A stretch of DNA of 64,000 nucleotides from the NCBI GenBank assembly GCA_030549495.1, contig JAUIRK010000804.1, positions 186,001-250,000 on the forward strand, read 5' to 3'. The DNA comes from Nectonema munidae. Lineage: Eukaryota > Nematomorpha > Nectonematoida > Nectonematidae. The position numbers were made by a program, and so were the translations under genes. This document shows positions 2,902 to 62,600 of the stretch, one piece after another (position 1 is the stretch's first letter; every line of letters starts with the position of its first letter). The notes beneath the pieces are model-generated. The model had not been told where the DNA came from. It searched no databases and worked only from the letters and a program-made list of their open reading frames with translations.

Positions 2902-41442
<38,541 letters not shown>

Positions 41443-50312: not shown

Positions 50313-51141
50313 TAGAGATGTATCGGATATCCGCATCCAATCCGCAAATGCGGATCATACGCAAACATTTTTACATCCACTTTACATCCTCATCCACGGT
50401 TTTTTTGATGTTAACATCCGCATCCCCATCAGCAATTTAAAATCTTTACATTATAGCTACTTTTCTAATTTTTACATTATATAGTTACTTTTCTCGATCC
50501 GAGATTCAAAAGTAAATTGTTCACCCATTTTGAAACAACAAATAAAGTAAAAACAAGCTATAAACTCTATTCTAAACTCTAGTAGTGAAGAAGGAGAAAG
50601 AAAATGAAGCTTTTAATGAAGAAATAAAGAAGTATCAAAATGAAAAAAGAATTGATTCATATAATTGCTTAGATATATATGGTTTAGATTCGTGGAAAAC
50701 TAAAAAAGAAGAATTTCCATTTTTATCAAAAATTGCATATCACCTTATCTATCCTCCTAGCACTGTTCAAGGCGAGCAGCTCTTTAGCAGCGCCGGAAAT
50801 ATTTATACTGACAAAGGAAAGAGATTAGTAGGGGAAAAAGTAGAAAAACTGTTATTTCTTAAAAAAAATTTACCGGTAATTAATTATGATTATTTTAAAT
50901 AAATTTTTCTAATTATTCTGATTTATGTTTTTTTACATTGGTGGATTAAAAAAACAGTAAAAAATGTAAAAAAGGGATAAAATAGTAAGATACTGTAAAA
51001 TATAAAACAATTTTTTTTTAATATTTTATATCCGTATCCGCATAAAAATTTATTTTGGATATTCGCATCCGCATCCTCTAGGATGTCAAATCTAATATCC
51101 GCATCCGCGGTGTAAAAAAATTCACATCCGATACATCTCTA
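50313..51141 (+). mobile_element. hAT element with TIRs, TSD and hATC open frame
   Basis: 829 bp with ends TAGAGATGTATCGGAT and ATCCGATACATCTCTA, perfect inverted repeats, and an ATATATAT duplication at 50305-50312 and 51142-51149. Subterminal ATCCGCATCC and GGATGCGG words recur. The 105-codon frame at 50585-50902 encodes SWKTKKEEFPFLSKIAYHLI, PSTVQGEQLFSSAGNIYTDK and GKRLVGEKVEKLLFLKKNL, the hATC dimerisation domain (W......P.L...A...L..P.(S)S...ER(L)FS.AG.I...R..L......LLFLK.N). Most of the transposase is deleted, so it is non-autonomous. The intact TIRs suggest relative youth. Confidence 0.9.
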
Positions 51142-51149
51142 ATATATAT

Positions 51150-52167
51150 TATATATACTGTTCTAAATTTATTATTCCGACTTTAAGAAAGTTTTTTTGA
51201 TATTTACTTTACTTTGAAAAAATCACTTAATTATTTGATATTGGTTTTTTTAGGTTCAGTACAGATTTTATGTTACAAAAAATATATAAAATGAACTTCT
51301 CGTTTTTATATTGTTGTTTTAACAGCAGCAAACATTAATTGTTTAAAAAAGTTAAGAAGGAAGGAAGGAAAATTTATTGTTTAAACATAAATTTTAGATA
51401 TGATAAGCAAAGTTTCATTTGAAGCTCAGTGCCGCTTAAAAATGTAAATTTAATTAAATAAGTGATGATAGCAAGCATTAAAATCTAAAATAGCTTTTTG
51501 CGAAAATAAAAATAAATCTGATAGAAAATTTGAGCATAAGGTCATTTATGGTGGATTAAAACAAAGTATTAGAGTGTTCAATGTTTCCTCATGAAGTTTG
51601 ACTAAAAATAAAATTACACCAAGTCCTATATAAGTAATAATTTCAGGGTTTTAAAGTAGTTAATTTTATCTCACAAATTTGACTAAAAATGCATCATCTC
51701 AAGAATCAATTTCAAATGATATGTAAAAGTTATATTATTCTGAGTGTTAAAAAAGTTTACATTAGTTTTTTTAGAGAATTTGTTTTCAATGTCAGCAATG
51801 ACATCTTTAAATATATTTTCAAAAATTGGAAATCTTAATTCTGTTCCCTCCAAATTTTACTTATTTAATTATATTAGATTAAGCATAATATTATAAATAT
51901 TATAAAAAATTTGACGGGAAGTTTGATTTTTAAATTCATTTCTTTTTGCAAAACGGTGTATATTACATATATGCCATGCATATTTCTTACATTTCACCAA
52001 TTCATCAACAATTTTTAAACTTTTATATAAGAATTCAAAAATAAATACTTCCATTATATTACACATGTGAAAACTTACTTTTCTTCATAAGTAGCAAACT
52101 TCATACAGTAAGAGTCTATATTCTTAAAATATAAATTGTAAATTTTGCAAAAGTACTAAAGATTCGT
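51150..52167. other. Intergenic, downstream of the FGF gene
   Basis: AT-rich. This includes the presumed 3' UTR side of the FGF gene. A 65-codon minus-strand frame at 52066-51869 was considered and rejected as an FGF exon. Confidence 0.5.
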
Positions 52168-52374
52168 TTATTTAGTATCAATTTTCTTCGTCTTTCTTTT
52201 GAGGAAATGAAAGCAATTTTCGTTATATTTCTTGTTGTTTGTTTTATGCGTGATAATTTTGCCCCAAAAATCGAATCCCAACAGCCACGAAGAATTGTAC
52301 CTTGATGTGTAAATGGTGTAGCCATCGGATGTGAGAGTTGCTTTGAAATCACAGAGCATAAGCTTTGCTCTTTT
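52168..52374 (-). CDS. FGF exon C: C-terminal half of the trefoil and stop
   Basis: 207 bp, 68 codons plus TAA. Acceptor TATTTTTTGGATATAG before AAAAGAGC, phase 0. It carries Cys119 of the C.F motif (LCDFKATL), DGYTIYTSRY, Trp141 and the LGFDFWGK strand, followed by HKTNNKK and FHFLKRKTKK. AATAAA overlaps the stop (CTAAATAAACG) and could serve for polyadenylation, though it is unusually close. Confidence 0.85.
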   Translation of the reverse strand, partial: KRAKLMLCDFKATLTSDGYTIYTSRYNSSWLLGFDFWGKIITHKTNNKKYNENCFHFLKRKTKKIDTK

Positions 52375-55300
52375 CTATATCCAAAAAATATAAAAAATTT
52401 CACATATGTTTTCGATGTAAAAAGAAGGAAAAGAAAAAAAATAAAATTAAGTTACTAAGATTTGGGATTAATTGAAAAAATATGCTGCAAAATACGAATT
52501 ATTTACAGAGTAGTTGCAAATTTTAAGTCATAAATTAATGCTTTTTACTAATTGAATAGTAAAATTTCAACTTTATCCCTTATCAGATACATATTTTTTT
52601 AACCTTATTAGATTATAAGAGTACAAATGTAGACATAAAATCTTTGGGAATTTTTCTGGAAAAGTTATAGGAATGGCACATGCTCTCATCTCTAAATACT
52701 TTTGTAACCAAATTTTTCCCTCAAATAAATAAGAAAAACACAATATTGAAACAAAATATTTTTATTTTACATTATAAAATTGTTATACCAAATTTTTTTT
52801 GAAATAAATAAAAAAACACAATATTAAAACAGTGAATTTTTTTTTTGAATGAAGAATGATTTGTTCAAACAGTTTTTCCACAGCTTTGACAACAGTTACG
52901 AGTGGATTTCCTGCAAAAGTTTGGTTGAAATTGCTTATTTTTCGCTTTCCCTTTTTTCACACCAAATAATTCAATGCAGCACTTTGTATCCTTCAACAAG
53001 CGACTGTGTTGGATTCTTCTTTTTCATCATTTCAAGAGCTGAAAGATTTTTCAGAAAAAATTTACGCGACTTTGTGTAATCATTTTTTTTGTCAATCACA
53101 AAGCTATTGAAGCATGCAACGTCAATAATATTATAAAACACAACAATTGGCCAATGAACACTTTTTCTTCTGCAGGTAAATTCTTCTAATTAATCAACAC
53201 CTACTTTAGTATTATTATAAAGATGGATAGTCTCTGGTAGAGAAGATAGAAGTGTATCTCGATTATAAAAACTGCTGTACAAAAGGATTACAGAACGGGT
53301 TTTCTTGGGCAAGAACGAAAGTAACAAAAAAAATTTTCGTTGTCGAACAGATATTCTGAATAATTTGGAGAACTTTAACATTTTTAAAACTTTAGAAACT
53401 TCTTTTCTGTTACAACGAAGTGTGCCAAGTAGCGTCATGTTTTTCTCAATCAACTGGCAGACTAGGTTATGACAGGTGAAAAATTTATCAGTGGTGATAT
53501 TTTAACCAGTATTGAACAGAAAGCTTGCATAAGTTCATAACAACTTTTTCGGCAAGATTTCTTTCTCTCTGTTTGCCTACCACAATATATTGTGGCATTT
53601 AAAGCAAATCCAGTCTTAACTTCACAAAGCCAAAAAATTTTTAAATCATACTTTTTTGGTTTTCTTGGTAAGTAGGATTTTCTGGGTAGTTTATCTCTGT
53701 AAGGTAATAGTTGCTAATCTAATGCGAGAAATTCTACAGGAATGTAAAGTTTTATCAAAGATAACACCAAAAGTTCGCAAACTTCTATGATCGCAGCCAT
53801 TTTGTCTTCTTTTTTTCTTACTTCTCTGGTTGATTGGTTGTCCAAACGGAGACATCTCAGAAATAATTTCATTCGATTAAGTGAAATGCAAGCTCTGTAA
53901 AAAGGATGAGAATCATTTTTATCAAAAAAGTCTCATATGTCATTAAAGTTATCACGATCTGCACCTGAGCGTATTAAAAAAGCTAAAAAAGACAATAGTT
54001 ACTTAAAATAATAATAAAACATAAAAATAGTTACTTAAAAAGGTTTAAATATTTTAATCAGTCGTACCAAACATACCTAGAATTTTTGAAGCGAACAAAG
54101 ATATTTTTGGATATTAAGAAACAAATGATTGATACATGAATCACTTGGGTGGTAAAAACTATTGGAGTCACATTATAAGTCAACGATTTCGAGCTCAAAG
54201 ATATAATGGCATTTCTGATGCATCCTTTGTAAAAGAAGACATAAAACTGAAAAACTCAAATTTTAACTCATTAAATAATTTATCTAAAATAGTCAGCAAG
54301 TCACATTGTAGGTATTGGCGGGTTGGATACGGCACATGGGCTTTATGTTTTACACACATTTACTAGTCCATAAAGGAATATTGTGAATTTATAGGTTATA
54401 CAATAAAGCATCCAAAAACAATTCTTTTAGGAACTATATTTTTTATGGAAACAATTTTTAATTTTAAAAGAAGGAAATTTCATTTTATTATAATTAAATG
54501 GTATGCCAAAGTATGCCAATATTTAATTCCCTATTTGATAATACTATGTGAAAATTTTAATTTTTTATTTCAAGTTCTTATTCAAAAAAATTTTTTTTAT
54601 ATAATTATATTTTGATATTCCCCTCGAAGTTTATCAATCCTTAAAATTGAGTGTTGATTGAATCAGATTTTGATTTAGCTTTCGCAGTGAAAAATATTTA
54701 CAAAAATTTAAACTAGTCACCATACTCTAAACATTTTTGACAGAAGTTTACTTATCTTGTTTTTAAGTCACTAAAATCTTCGTAAACCTCTTTACGTACG
54801 GAGCTTAATCTTTAAAGGAATATTTGTTATACATTATAATAAAATATACATTCATTACTTAAAAAGTCAAAAGAAATGTTTTCATAAATAAGTGAAAATG
54901 TAAAATTTAAAAATTTTTCGTTTTACAAATAATAGTAAACGTTTAAAATAGATCAATTTTTAAGTTTAAATCACAATTTTTTTTGATTAACTTCAAAAAT
55001 TAGAAATTATTATAGTATAGTTTTTTTAAAACCTCAAAAAATTTTCGCTATAAATTGTGAAAAATCATATTTTAAAACTAAAATATATTGTGATGTTATT
55101 TACACATATTTTCGCTCATTTTATATGTGAATGTAGAAGCTTTTCATTCTTGAGAAGATTGAATAATTTTTGACATATTTGATTGAAGACAAAATCATGA
55201 GAAACTATTAATTATTTTATCAATATATCTAAAAATAATCATTTCTTCGAATTAAGCTGTTAATTATATTTGTTGAATCAAATGTTTTCTCTATTTTCAC

Positions 55301-58300
55301 CACACTGTAAAATATCTACCTTTTCTATTTCTCTACACGTTAGCATAAATATAATATTAACGTTGAAATACGTTCTATTATTCAGCTGGAGTAAACGAAT
55401 ATAAAACAGAGAGATTAGAGTAATACTAATATAGTCTTTTTATTTATACGCCTTTTTAAAAGTTTTTTCCCATTTAACCCGACGACCAGATAATCAGACG
55501 ATATCTAATGTAAAGCAGAAGATTTGTATTAAAGAGCTTTGATAAACGCAGACGATTTTATTTTTGTAAAGTCGACTATAGTCGACATTGGGCGTTAACG
55601 GGTTAATACATTTTTTATGTTGATCTATTTAATGAAGGTTAATAAGCTCGATCAGGATTAATTGATAAGAGTCTAAGCTATTCTTTATAGACACATATAG
55701 TAGATTTAATAAATTTGTTACTTAAAGCCGATTAGTGTTTGTTTTGTTATGGTTAGTTGTTAGTTATGTGAGTAATAAGTGGAATATTTTCCTAATTAAT
55801 CATGATTTTAAGTTATTTATATAGAGAAGCAAAGATAATATTTAAGCCTTTATTATTAATTTTTAACAGTTAGTCATTTAGATAAATTAACACAGTATAC
55901 ATATTTTACTACATTTAAAAATTTCTAAATTATTGAAAAACCAGTATTCAGTAAGAGTATTCATTATTTAAAGGATTAAAGAACTTAAATTCGTTTACAA
56001 GTAAAAATTAAGAAAGTTTTACCTCTTTTGGAGTCACCTAGCCTAAAGTTTATTGTAGTTAAATTTAAAAAATATTATTTTACTCTGCAAAATCTCAGAA
56101 TAAAAGGAAAAATGATACATTTTTTTCGCGATAAGTCATAAATGTAAACTATAAAATTTGCCCATTTCTTTAAACATTAACCCATTTACGGCAATCGTCT
56201 GCGTTTTCTTAGATAACGTCTGCTTTGTTGGCCTTAAATGTGTTAATTTAAGCTTTAAAATATTTAGAAGCATAAAACGGTTTTTTAGAGTTGAAAATAT
56301 TAAAGAAGAAGAAGAAGAAAAAGAAATATTTTCAAACATAAAAAAAAGTTATATAAATTTGAAAATGATTAAAAAAAAATGAGTGCTTATATAAGCAATG
56401 AGCATATCAAAAGAGATTAACAAAAGAATACGAGTAAATTTGTTTGAAATAAACTTGTTTGAAGGTCCATAAAGGCGGCATTAAAAAAATTGAAACTTTT
56501 GTGGTGCAGAATACGTGTTAATTCGCAGACAATTTTTAAAATATTTTAGCATAAGGAAAGAACAAGAAAACTTTTTTAAATTTATAACTTAACCAATTTT
56601 TCAACGTTTACTCAATTCTAAAAAATTCTTTTGCAAAATGCTGTCCCCGTTAAAGCATCGAAATATACAGTACTTATAATACAATATAGCGAACAATAGA
56701 GGATTCCATAACAAACTTATCTGTTTCTCCCATGCTAGATGTCGTCTTTTCATTTATACATTCACAATATCTAATGTTATCATCTTTAAAGTTTTATCTC
56801 ACACTACTTTCCACCTTGCTTCTTTTCTTAACTTTTAATCTCCAAAGGCATTTAATCTTCTACTTTGAAAAACTGAAAACATTTGTCACAATGAAAAATG
56901 TTCATGTGAAAATTTTACTTTAAACAAAAGAATTCTCCTCCATCTAGCAACTCTTCAAGGGAATAAGCATATTCACTTATTGTGTCGTCCATCTTCTTAA
57001 TTAATTACTTTGATGAATCAATGCTTACAATACATAAATTGTAGCTCTTATTCTATAAAATTTGTTGCAATGCGCATCCGATGAATATTGAAAGTTAGGG
57101 TTTTTATTTACTGTAATTATTTTTATTAGAATTTCAAACAATAAGGAAACTACGATTAAGCTAAGCGTGATATATAAGAGGTATTGTTCTGAATAACAAT
57201 TTGACATAACTTTTTCTTATTTTATTTAATTTTTTCACTTTTTTTAAATAATATCTTTAATAAACATCATTTATTTTTTAGTAACCCTTTTTTTGTGTAG
57301 AAATTTTGAAATTACATTCTTTCAAATGAATTTTGATTCAAATAGATCTTTAAATCTTAAAGGTTTCCAAATATTAAATTTTTAATAAAGAGATGAAAAA
57401 GTGTGTTGTATCTCTGATGCAATAACTGGTAAACCTTTTTTGTTGAAGAGTTATATTTATCCTATCTCTCAGTCTATACTTTTTTAAAGAAATTGTTTAA
57501 TTAATCACATAGTAAATAAGAATTTCTTATAGCCAAAATTATATTTATATAGTAATTTCGTAAAATAAAATTTAAGTTCAATCAAAAATGCTATATAAAC
57601 TTTAAGCAGAAAATTAACCTAAGTACAGTCATATATTGATAAATCCCTCAACTGGATAATTCAGAAACATCCTTCTTTTATCATTTGATATACCTCAAAA
57701 TTTAATCTGAAATTATATTAAAATTACAAGAATCAATTTTTCACATAAGATTTTAAATAATTCCAGTTATTAAGAAATTTAATGAATAATTAAAAAATTT
57801 TTGTTCTTACTTTTAAATCAAGAAAATTTTGAATTATGTGAAAATTAGTTCATTTAAAATATAAACAACTGAAGTAACAAATATGACGAAATTTGCACAA
57901 TAAAAAATTATTACATTACAGTGGATAGAATTTATACAAATTGTTAGTGGGAAAGAACTTTTATCTAGCATAAGCATTGTTTATTCTCAAATTCATTCAA
58001 AGCGACTTGGAATAAAAGAAAAGAAACCTTAGCAATAATTTTCCTTTTTCTTGTGAAACAAATATAGCGTGAATTGAAGTTGCTTTGAAGTCTAACATAG
58101 GAAGGCTGAAGAATTTTTACTCGGATTTCCGCTAAATTAAAAACATTTGTTAGAATTGATAAAAAAAAAACCCCCAACAGTTTTTTTTAATTTTGTACAC
58201 CAATGCTAGCCTATACAAGCTATCCGCACAAATTGAAATTACTATGTTATAAATTACACTCATTTAAGTGTTTCTTTTAAGTGTAGCTATTTTTGGAACG

Positions 58301-59649
58301 AATTTTTAAGCAGTGCTTGTAAGTTGGATTCACACTAAACTTATTTAAATTAAAAAGAAGTTTTACTTCAGGTCTTATATCTGACGACACAAAAATAAAG
58401 TGTACCCCTACACGATGTTTTTGCTGTAAAAATGGCTAATGATTACTAATATAGTAAGTAAGTTTATTAAAAAAAAACTTTTGAGAAAATAATATATTTA
58501 TAATATATCAGTCAGATTTTTATTAGTCTTTTCTAATATAGGTTTTTACTTCTTTCTTAAACATCTTTGATGTTTTCTAATACTTTTAAACATTTTTTAT
58601 TTAAAAATTGAACTTGGATTTTCCATTTTAAATCGATAATTAATTTGAAGAAAATAATAATTGAATGAGAAGGAAATTTATTTTATTAAAATTACAATTA
58701 ATTTCGGTGTACACTAACACCGTTTTCAAGATATAAAAAGTAATTTTGAGTATTGAAGAGTGAAAGATATATATATATATATATATACATGTATGTATAT
58801 ATGTAACTGTGTAATGTATATGTGTAAGCATATAATGTGTGAATATAGGTGATAAAGGTAGAGGTGACGATATTTTAACAATAACAAAGTAATATGGAAG
58901 GAATATGCATAATATATAAAATGATGTATATGATTTTATTTTACCATTATTACTTCTAAATTCTATTTTTTTTTAGTTCTAAATGGTCTTTTTTCAATTC
59001 TAAATTGTTTTTTTAATTTAAAATTGTTTTTTAAAGTTCTAAAATGTCTTTTTTCAAATTCTAAACGCTCTTTCTAAAATACAAAATAAAATAAAAACAA
59101 TTTATAATGTAAAAAAGACAAATTAGTATTGAAAAAAGACAATTTCGAACTAAAAAAAGACAATTTTATATTTGAGCTGTTAATTGGTATTTATTCTTAG
59201 TTGCTTTTAGAGAATATGATATTCACTTATTTTTTTAGTAAAAATATTTTGATTTATTTAACAATTAATGTAATAAAAAATCATTTAAATACTTAAAATT
59301 ATTCAGCAACACGTTTATTGACATAAAGAACGTAAAAACAAGAATTTAAGCATTTAATATTCATTTTTTAATGATTTTACCAATAATAAAAAGTTTGCTT
59401 GAAATGAAATATTTTCTTACCATATTTTTCAAGATGTCTGACGTTATGCAATCCTTTAGCGTTAACTAGACGATTGAAGACTTGAATATGTCTTCCACTG
59501 CATCTGTTGTAAAGTTTGAAGGTTTTGTGATGAGGAGAAAAAAAAATTTGCTCACTTTTTAAAAAGTCTTCTCCTTTTTTACCTAAAATGTCTCTAATTG
59601 CCAACATATTGATAAAAGGAAATCTTCGTAATTGTTTTTTCGAAAAAAT
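52168..59649 (-). CDS. Fibroblast growth factor, FGF8/17/18-like (three exons seen, 5' end missing)
   Basis: Exons 59649-59421, 58131-58028 and 52374-52168 join in phase 1 and phase 0 to give 179 residues ending in TAA. The core beta-trefoil starts near residue 43: TFKLYNRCSGRHIQVFNRLV, close to the LYSRTSGKHVQV signature of the FGF8 group. It continues with VRLQSNFNSRYICFTRKRK and IIAK (YIC.....K.(I)IAK), then CDFKATLTSDGYTIYTSRYN, SSWLLGFDFWGKI and HKTNNKKYN...FHFL, matching C.F.E...(N)(G)Y..Y.S..Y..W.LGF...G....K(T)......FL. FGFs are secreted ligands for receptor tyrosine kinases, with heparan sulfate as cofactor; HKTNNKK lies where heparin-binding basic residues occur in the family. The signal peptide exon was not found. 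All three exons are intact, which argues against a pseudogene. Confidence 0.82.
52375..52849. other. FGF intron between exons B and C, first part
   Basis: AT-rich, nothing recognised. Confidence 0.6.
52850..54330 (-). pseudogene. piggyBac transposase relic
   Basis: Minus-strand pieces in order: DRDNFNDI and HPFYRACISLNRMKLFLRCL (about 53880-53990), then LPRKPKKYDLKIFWLCEVKT with GFALNATIYCGR (about 53580-53680), IEKNMTLLGTLRCNRKEV and ETIHLYNNTKVGVD (53453-53190), and CRRKSVHWPIVVFYNIIDVA just after. These are the classic blocks of the piggyBac DDE transposase (SLNRF..ILR.L, KP.KYGIK.(F)WL.(D), T..GT.R.NR, E.I..YN.TKGGVD, RR...RWP...F.N.ID). Several stops show it is dead. It sits in the FGF intron on the same strand as the gene. 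Confidence 0.85.
54331..55473. other. FGF intron, AT-rich
   Basis: No gene or repeat defined. Confidence 0.6.
55474..55606. mobile_element. piggyBac-type MITE, 133 bp
   Basis: Begins TTAACCCGACGACCAG and ends GGGCGTTAACGGGTTAA, an inverted TTAACCCG with a TTAA at each end, as left by piggyBac insertion. No coding. It shares the 14-mer AAACGCAGACGATT with the element at 56177-56246 (inverted there). Confidence 0.65.
55607..56176. other. FGF intron, AT-rich
   Basis: Nothing recognised between the two MITEs. Confidence 0.6.
56177..56246. mobile_element. piggyBac-type mini-MITE, 70 bp
   Basis: Ends TTAACCCATTTACGGC and GGCCTTAAATGTGTTAA are inverted repeats matching at 15 of 17 positions, with terminal TTAA. 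The inside holds AATCGTCTGCGTTT, the reverse complement of a word in the MITE at 55474. Confidence 0.6.
56247..58027. other. FGF intron, AT-rich
   Basis: No gene recognised. Small frames on both strands have no family resemblance. Confidence 0.6.
58028..58131 (-). CDS. FGF exon B: middle exon, 104 bp
   Basis: Acceptor GTTTTTAATTTAG before CGGAAATCC; with the G from exon A this makes Ala77. It encodes EIRVKILQPSYVRLQSNFNS, then RYICFTRKRKIIAK, in phase 1 to 0. A 104-bp middle exon ending just after the (K)G.L.(A)(K/S) strand is, as I recall, the conserved layout in many FGF genes. The donor AAG|GTTTCT is weak; read-through would add 19 residues and then a stop. Confidence 0.82.
58132..59420. 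other. FGF intron between exons A and B
   Basis: 1,289 bp, AT-rich. Contains an AT-dinucleotide run at 58766-58788 and several poly-T or TTTTTCTAAA-like words at 58960-59160. It begins, on the minus strand, with GTAAGAAAA. Confidence 0.65.
59421..59649 (-). CDS. FGF exon A: N-terminal part of the trefoil
   Basis: Open for 76 codons to the donor TATG|GTAAGA (phase 1). LYNRCSGRHIQV and NRLVNAKG are the strongest FGF8-group match in the window. The 5' boundary is uncertain: the acceptor TGATTATAG at 59650 is in frame and used here. Alternatives are a nearer AG within 59590-59600, or initiation at Met 59607. The sequence before TFKLYNR (GKKGEDFLKSEQ) resembles the variable segment that follows the signal peptide in this group. 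Confidence 0.78.
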
Positions 59650-62600
59650 CTATAATCAGATGATATGATTAAAGACAAAATATTACATTTCAATTTATTA
59701 GAATAGTATAGAGATGTAAAAAAATATTATTATAAGTTTTTTTATTATGTCACTATAGAGATCATATTCTTGTTAAAAAAATAAATACATAAATTGAATT
59801 TAAAAAATGTTAACTAAAGTAGCAATATAATTAGTCAAATACAATACAATAAACTAACCAATTACATAGCCATCTAATATCATTAACTCAACTAACCCTA
59901 ACCCTTATAAAATAAGGTTTTGAAGTTATTATTACCTTTAAATTGTCAATATAAAATATGTAATTTACAAAATCATCGCAAATATTAAGTTTTAAAAGTG
60001 TTTATTAAAAAATATAATTTTTATAAGGATTACCTTTGCAAAGAATTGATTTGTAAATATCTGATTTGCTGTTAGTCTCCAACTAAATACATTAGAAGCA
60101 TATTATATAATTTATATTAATATTGAAAGAAATTATGAAACATCTTCCAAAATTTAAAGTTATCAAGAATTTTATTGAGCAAGTATTTTTTAGCATTTTT
60201 GTTTTAGAGAAAATTGATTCAATTCTTTCAGAAAAATCTAGAATTACTTTATTGCTATAATATTTTGAGAAACTCGTAGAAAATGCTCAGACGAATTCTC
60301 GAAAAGGCAAAATGCACAATTGGAAAATTTAATTAAATAGAAGAATTATGACACTATATTAAATAGAGAAAAATAGAAAAAAATGTTTACTATATGCTAA
60401 CTGTCTAGTTAACCAAATTATAAGAACTAATTGATTAGCTTGCTAACTAATAATCTGGATCTTAACTAACTTAACAACTAATAATTAACTAATTAAAGAA
60501 ATGCATAAATAAAATTAACTAATAAAAAATATATTTATTAATCGTCATGCAAACAAACAAATGGATGGTAAATTTTTATTTATTTTATATGTCAACATAT
60601 TAAAAAATAACTATGATTTTTAACATATCAGTCTGTTTCCTAATTATTAAAAAATTTATTCACCGCCATTTTTTTATTTTACCATTTTCATTTTTGCATA
60701 TTATTTTTTCCTTCTAAAATTCTTCTTTCTCCAATCCTTTTTATATTTTTTATTTAGAATCTAGCTTTGTTATTAAAATTAAATATTTAAACTATAGTGA
60801 AATGACGAGTATGGTCTAATCTAAAGGTTTTAGCCTGAATATCTATATTTGATTCTAATCAAAGGATTTAATTTCTATATTAATCCACTATCGGATTTAG
60901 TGTATGCCTTTGATTACGTCCATTTATATATGCAATTTACAGTTCAATGAATTTTCCGGTCACCCTTTTATCTGGTTATTCTGGTTTTAATTTTCATTGC
61001 AGAAAATATGTTTATATTTTAGATGAATTTATCTTACAATAAAAGGATAAGGAAGAGCCAATAGCGAAAGAGCATTTCATTGTTGCGTTGGATATAATTT
61101 CACTGGAATCTAAAACATATATTTTGAATGTTGATAATAAAAGAAAAACAATGAACTCAAAATCAGTAAATGTTTTTATACTTTACTCATAAAATGTCTT
61201 TTTTACTTTTACTAAAGATTTTATATACAAGTGATCATTAATGTATATTATGGTTTAAAATATATTTATTTTAAATGAAAACTGTGTAAGTGAAGTTGCA
61301 AAGATAAAAATCAATATCAATTTATTAATGCCAAATATGACATTCTTTGTCAAAAAGGTTATATAAATGCAATCAAGTGATAAAATATCCACTCATTTTA
61401 CAATTTATTTTTGATTACATGTATTGAATAAATTGTATATATGGTTCGCCCCAAGAGGAAAAATCTGCCTTATCAGAAAGTAATAAATATTTTCTCTTTG
61501 CTCAATTGTTTCTTCGTAATTATTCGTGAATTTATATTAATAATTTTGAGCATTTTCCTAAAATACATCACTATTTTCACCAAAAATTTAAAACTTTCCA
61601 AATATTAACAGGCAATTTTATTGCTAATAAAATATTTCAAACAGAATTTTTACTTTTTTAGAATGTTTTGACTTTCTTAGAGAAAACATTGTACTACCAG
61701 CTATAGCGAAATGATGTCCAAATGTTCATGTAATTAGGTTGTAATCAACCTCTTTTTTATTTTTCGATTATATCTGAAATTACAGAGTTGAAAGCAAAGC
61801 AATATTTTTCACTGACAAGTATATTGTCTCTTGATAATAATAGGAAAGTTTAATTTTTTTACATAAATTACACAAATAGCAAGTTTCATATAGTAACTTT
61901 TTTTAACTAGTCATCTCGCTCTTACTTAAAGAAACTCACCCATAGCTAATAATATTATACTATAAATATATATCATTTTTAGTTCTAGTTTGTCCATTTG
62001 CAATTATATTTTGTCTTTTTGCAATTCTATGTGAATTAAATTTTTTCATTTTGTTGTATTTATATAGTTTTGGCAAATATTTTAACATTATATTGAGATT
62101 AAATTTTCTAAATTTTTGACAAGGGATTAGCTATTAAATTATAACTATTTTTTTTAGTGTAAGCAAGATTATTTTATGCTAATTTTGAAAAATGAAAGTA
62201 ATAACTTGTAACATGCCTTTTAATTTAACTTTATTTAGTGGAGTCCTTTATGAGCTCTATTTTTGAAGGATTTAGTTAAAAAAAAATGTTCACTTTACAG
62301 CCAAATAATATATAATATTGTAGAAAAAGGAAAATAAGCTTACTTTGCAATTTTTATGAGAGAAGAATATTGATGTGTACTATATCCATATCATAAGTAG
62401 CAAAGTTTATCTTATCGGAAAAATGTTACTTTTATCTACAAGTATAAGCATTACAGTACAAACACACACACACACAGACATAAATATAAGTATTGTATAC
62501 TTCTTATGTACTAAAGATATACATTATTTGCATTTCATATATAAGTATTGGTGTATGTGCAATGTGCGATGTGCAATTGTGTGCGATGATTTCAGTGTTT

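Follow-up and report, generated by a model that had tools for sequence, protein, structure and literature searches.

A divergent fibroblast growth factor gene in three small exons of Nectonema munidae, most likely of the FGF8/17/18/24 subfamily

We analysed a window of 64,000 nucleotides (the whole stretch of DNA under study), which corresponds to C514:186001-250000 in an assembly of 211.56 Mb and 748 contigs. The gene described here lies at window positions 52168-59649 on the minus strand. Its parts are as follows (a slash marks the exon border).

59421..59649, minus strand: exon 1, the first core exon, 229 bp, ...KTFKLYNRCSGRHIQVFNRLVNAKGLHNVRHLEKY; donor G/GTAAGA, phase 1
58132..59420, minus strand: intron 1, 1,289 bp, GT..AG; donor GTAAGA at 59420
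58028..58131, minus strand: exon 2, the middle exon, 104 bp, AEIRVKILQPSYVRLQSNFNSRYICFTRKRKIIAK; phase 1 in, phase 0 out
52375..58027, minus strand: intron 2, 5,653 bp, GT..AG; weak donor GTTTCT at 58027
52168..52374, minus strand: exon 3, the last exon, 207 bp, KRAKLMLCDFKATLTSDGYTIYTSRYNSSWLLGFDFWGKIITHKTNNKKYNENCFHFLKRKTKKIDTK; stop codon TAA at 52170-52168
52167..52172, minus strand: AATAAA, overlapping the FGF stop codon; possible poly(A) signal

The two acceptors are TTTAATTTAG and TTTTTTGGATATAG. Joined by script on the minus-strand sequence, the exons give 179 codons and a TAA, free of internal stops, with intron phases 1, then 0. The original prediction of three minus-strand exons in compatible phases is thus borne out by one open frame with GT..AG at both junctions; the length of 104 bp given for the middle exon agrees with the measured interval 58028-58131, and the quoted FGF-core strings were all found in the sequence. 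The FGF core is typically encoded in three exons, with an intron of phase 1 before the middle exon and one of phase 0 after it; the window gene fits this layout, its middle exon measuring 104 bp. The GC content of the exons is 33-35%, against 21-26% in the introns; this comparison was made post hoc, and 7% of the stretches of equal length at 40-64 kb are equally GC-rich.

Based on the Pfam FGF family (PF00167), the joined protein is matched with an E-value of 2.3e-13 and 50.7 bits (cut-off 24), over profile positions 3-124 of 124. The proposed HMM check of the joined translation therefore returned a match above the cut-off along nearly the full profile. When the exons are submitted one by one, exon 3 reaches 20.9 bits and misses the cut-off of 24, and exon 1 (from its ATG) and exon 2 give nothing in Pfam at E <= 10. 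The earlier point that the gene is not visible in any one frame also held: an unspliced search of the whole genome for the family was empty at E 0.001, and exon 3 of the window gene appeared alone, at E 0.27, once the limit was raised to E 10. When the joined protein was compared with the whole genome, six matches were obtained; three of them are its own exons and the others are weak (E 0.1, 0.7 and 1.3). The weak matches on C252, C740 and C606 show by eye no FGF frame and were rejected as paralogues; another candidate, on C336, resembles by eye a fascin-type trefoil and was set aside. The FGF18 core found no match in the genome, and this search must be regarded as insensitive, since it missed even the window gene. 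Judged by its sequence, the window gene is a genuine, if divergent, member of the FGF family.

Concerning the subfamily, comparison of the joined protein with PDB sequences places FGF18 (7.7e-14, 55.2 bits) and FGF8b (1.8e-10, 44.2 bits) on top, followed by a consensus FGF (4e-5), FGF21 (0.11) and FGF2 (0.28); several antibody chains are among the weak matches. FGF18 and FGF8 are ahead of every other PDB chain by at least 17 bits, as the others reach at most 27 bits, and FGF1, FGF9, FGF12 and FGF20, which are members of the PDB set, are absent at E <= 10. The top order is unchanged with a 165-aa form of the window protein. With FGF18 and FGF24 it has 32% identity, with two FGF8s 29%, and with FGF1, 4, 9, 10 and 12 the values are 16-22%; the cores of FGF1, 4, 9 and 10 used here were verified against PDB entries. 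A tree of 11 rows, with no invertebrate FGF8 among them, groups the window protein with FGF8, FGF18 and FGF24 at a support of 88/93 (below the strong-support mark of the tool). The FGF8-like identity proposed in the original prediction is supported both by the lead of FGF18 and FGF8b in the PDB comparison and by this grouping. A profile built from the window protein and FGF18 was also run against the protein set: among the best 120 of 561 matches most are FGF18 and those with a species name are all vertebrate, a result that is no evidence on the subfamily because FGF18 was part of the query.

The window protein has in common with vertebrate FGF18, FGF8 and FGF24 the whole FGF core and the LY-R-SG-H-QV stretch, at the 29-32% identity given above. 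It differs from them in four residues inserted between NAKG and KYAE, a C-terminal basic loop two residues longer, two more cysteines (NRC and ENC) and its N-terminal segment; a signal peptide is putative in the window protein. Two other cysteines of the window protein align with the pair of FGF8/18/24, which forms a disulphide in FGF18; the first of the two is absent in FGF1, 4, 9, 10 and 12. The same pair is found in a second FGF of this genome (on C704, described below), which is FGF12-like and lies outside the FGF8 branch in the tree, so the pair by itself does not mark that branch here. Nor does the short loop before W mark it by itself, since the loop of FGF4 is short too. In the excerpted text of PMC3420111, protostome members of FGF8/17/18/24 include EGL-17 of C. 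elegans, Pyramus and Thisbe of Drosophila, and FGF8 of Tribolium; by that placement they share the subfamily to which the window gene most likely belongs.

The 5′ limit of exon 1 is uncertain, as possible acceptor AGs lie at 59649 (phase 0), 59593 (phase 2) and 59582 (phase 1), with several more; the in-frame ATG of the exon starts at 59607. The 24 kb upstream were scanned for signal-peptide exons by hydrophobicity and donor score, with 369 kb of the same genome as background and with thresholds that were fixed after candidate A had been seen. Six donor ends pass the loose threshold in these 24 kb, compared with 1.8 expected, and the best three candidates reach up to 19 kb upstream.

61940..61997, minus strand: candidate A, MDKLELKMIYIYSIILLAMG; donor G/GTGAGT, phase 1 to the acceptor at 59582; 21% GC; weak
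64462 and 79686 (window-extended coordinates): further donor ends that pass, outside the best three

The upstream search suggested in the original prediction did bring up several signal-like exons; the best three are wholly or partly in repeated DNA and none was adopted. Candidate A lies mostly inside a repeat. Candidate B (C514:252346-252279) has its flank in a common repeat, and there is a single 78% copy of the exon proper, which contains a frame-shifting gap. Candidate C (C514:264834-264775) has the top donor, 7/7, of which there are 0 in the 369 kb of background; it is antisense within an element with at least 42 further matches (40 of 55 candidates scored). A frame beside it is by eye a CENP-B-like transposase, and the interval of 59.65-80 kb contains frames that resemble, also by eye, relics of LINEs and DNA transposons.

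Among the explanations for these data, an accidental combination of three open frames without relation to one another has a practically negligible probability: the DNA is AT-rich and the window outside its CAT array holds 448 stop-to-stop frames of 40 or more amino acids, but the Pfam match at 2.3e-13 is co-linear over nearly the whole profile, and even about 1.5e7 frame triples (any 3 of the 448) would still leave about 3e-6. It is also very unlikely that the locus is a pseudogene, a dead FGF copy. Such a reading could draw on the first exon, which is without a convincing candidate, on the weak donor of intron 2, and on the broken transposase in that intron together with the transposon-like frames seen by eye upstream; against it, 179 codons over three exons are kept without a stop or frame shift, both junctions keep their splice dinucleotides, and the search of the whole assembly with the joined protein gave no second copy.

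A true but fast-evolving FGF from outside the FGF8 branch, whose nearness to FGF8/18 would result from convergence or a long-branch effect, is the less improbable of the alternatives, and we still consider it unlikely. The end branch of the window protein is 2.91 changes per column long and the strong-support mark is reached in 0 of 8 inner branches; the cysteine pair is unspecific, as the C704 FGF has it too; and the middle exon of FGF1/FGF9-type genes is 104 bp, which is the size found here. On the other side stand the 55 and 44 bits for FGF18 and FGF8 compared with at most 27 for any other PDB chain, and the identity of 29-32% to FGF8/18/24 compared with 16-22% to the others. The reading that we prefer, and hold to be highly probable, is a protein-coding FGF gene that most likely belongs to the FGF8/17/18/24 subfamily.

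The genome was also searched for a receptor and for further FGFs. With the kinase domain of FGFR1 as the query, 53 matches were found at E <= 1e-5. The lowest E-value is that of an intronless kinase on C316 (43% identity) and the highest identity is that of a C78 exon (66% over 71 residues).

C78:735.7-739.7 kb, plus strand: exons of a receptor tyrosine kinase of FGFR type, each up to 66% identical to the human FGFR1 kinase
C704:230382-248779, plus strand: second FGF gene, four exons, ..HFLQMLPDGTINGTYDRNSIY, KIMQVSLFQRNRLVQLMNVKVKKYVCMNSKGYLYSKLK, GKNHISCIFYKEK.. and FVALNDLGYPLKG..

When two of the C78 exons are joined, FGFR1-4 make up 59 of the 60 best PDB rows listed; the remaining row, at the top of the list, is a chain called EGF receptor that is matched in two places. 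The genome holds an FGFR-type receptor kinase. The joined exons of the C704 gene match Pfam FGF at 2.3e-21; the intron between its last two exons is 68 bases long, and its second exon is flanked by the same intron phases as the middle exon of the window FGF. In the PDB it is closest to FGF12/FHF1 (3.7e-17), followed by the consensus FGF (1.8e-14), FGF13 (3e-13), FGF1 (4e-12), FGF20 (6e-12) and FGF9 (1e-10). The two FGFs belong to the same family and share the cysteine pair, whereas their identity is 18% and it is the C704 protein that is nearest to FGF12/FHF1.

By these genes, the animal has at least two FGFs and an FGFR-type receptor kinase; at the sensitivity of the searches used, the number of FGFs is a lower bound. 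That the animal belongs to a lineage with hitherto undescribed FGF signalling and keeps a small FGF set consisting of an FGF8-type ligand and a second FGF nearest to the intracellular FGF12/FHF type is a rather unlikely reading. According to the excerpted text of PMC3420111, only FGF1/2, FGF8/17/18/24, FGF9/16/20 and Bnl are clear in protostomes. For an invertebrate, an FHF-like FGF would, if true, be notable, and if a protostome had a true FHF, the origin of that subfamily would move back to before the chordates.

The joined protein was compared with a protein set carrying nr, UniRef, NCBI and EukProt names, and none of the 36 candidates was matched at E <= 10; therefore that set contains no annotated protein that is both nearly identical to it and 0.55-1.75 times as long. 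The window FGF seems unannotated there, although other annotations may include it, and the earlier remark that automatic annotation could miss the gene fits the absence of relatives at E <= 10 among the 36 candidates. Since FGF8/17/18/24 in protostomes is already published, as far as the excerpted text of PMC3420111 goes, the window FGF would add a member to a known protostome subfamily. It would be a developmental ligand whose exons are small and whose identity to the vertebrate relatives is about 32%; such a gene can be detected by reading splice borders. Two putative ligands and one putative receptor are now on record for an animal with a seemingly unannotated FGF, which helps to fix the FGF subfamilies kept in a poorly sampled lineage; knowledge of how FGFs work is unchanged by the window gene.

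Members of the FGF family are small proteins, in general secreted, and they activate FGFR kinases (PMC3420111, excerpted text, and general knowledge). The window protein would be expected to fold as a beta-trefoil and may be secreted by means of a signal peptide, the exon for which would lie upstream. With its basic surface it could then bind heparan sulphate, and it could activate an FGFR as a paracrine developmental signal, as EGL-17 and FGF8 do.

Other features were recorded in the window and in one further contig.

53193-53932, minus strand: piggyBac-like transposase, broken, within the second intron of the FGF gene
50576-50899, plus strand: dimerisation piece of a hAT transposase (5.8e-10)
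About 5.5-10.5 kb: LINE-like frames (by eye)
27681-39203, plus strand: intermediate-filament gene of several exons, matched in two pieces (Filament 4e-19, lamin tail 1.6e-8)
13558-17425: CAT trinucleotide array, 3.87 kb, 99% matches
C107:1917-3518, minus strand: COX1, divergent and about full-length, with TGA read as Trp (code 5), on a contig of 70.7 kb

Of the two transposase pieces in intron 2, one passes the cut-off for DDE_Tnp_1_7 (4.3e-5) and the other, at 7.2e-4, falls short of it. An Rfam search of the window returned nothing. A 36-base CAT run has 54,629 + 55,384 overlapping matches genome-wide, compared with 61 + 91 for a backward-read control, and long CAT arrays are therefore very abundant in this genome. 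The COX1 on C107 is 45-52% identical to its best 120 matches listed, all of them arthropod where named. ARAGORN (bacterial code) listed no tRNA in the first 10 kb of C107, the first 5 kb of which contain only four weak inverted repeats; according to the excerpted text of PMC10380579, cox1 is without hairpins in a known hairworm. The features of C107, which by eye also include repeated non-coding stretches, are odd for an animal mitochondrial genome.
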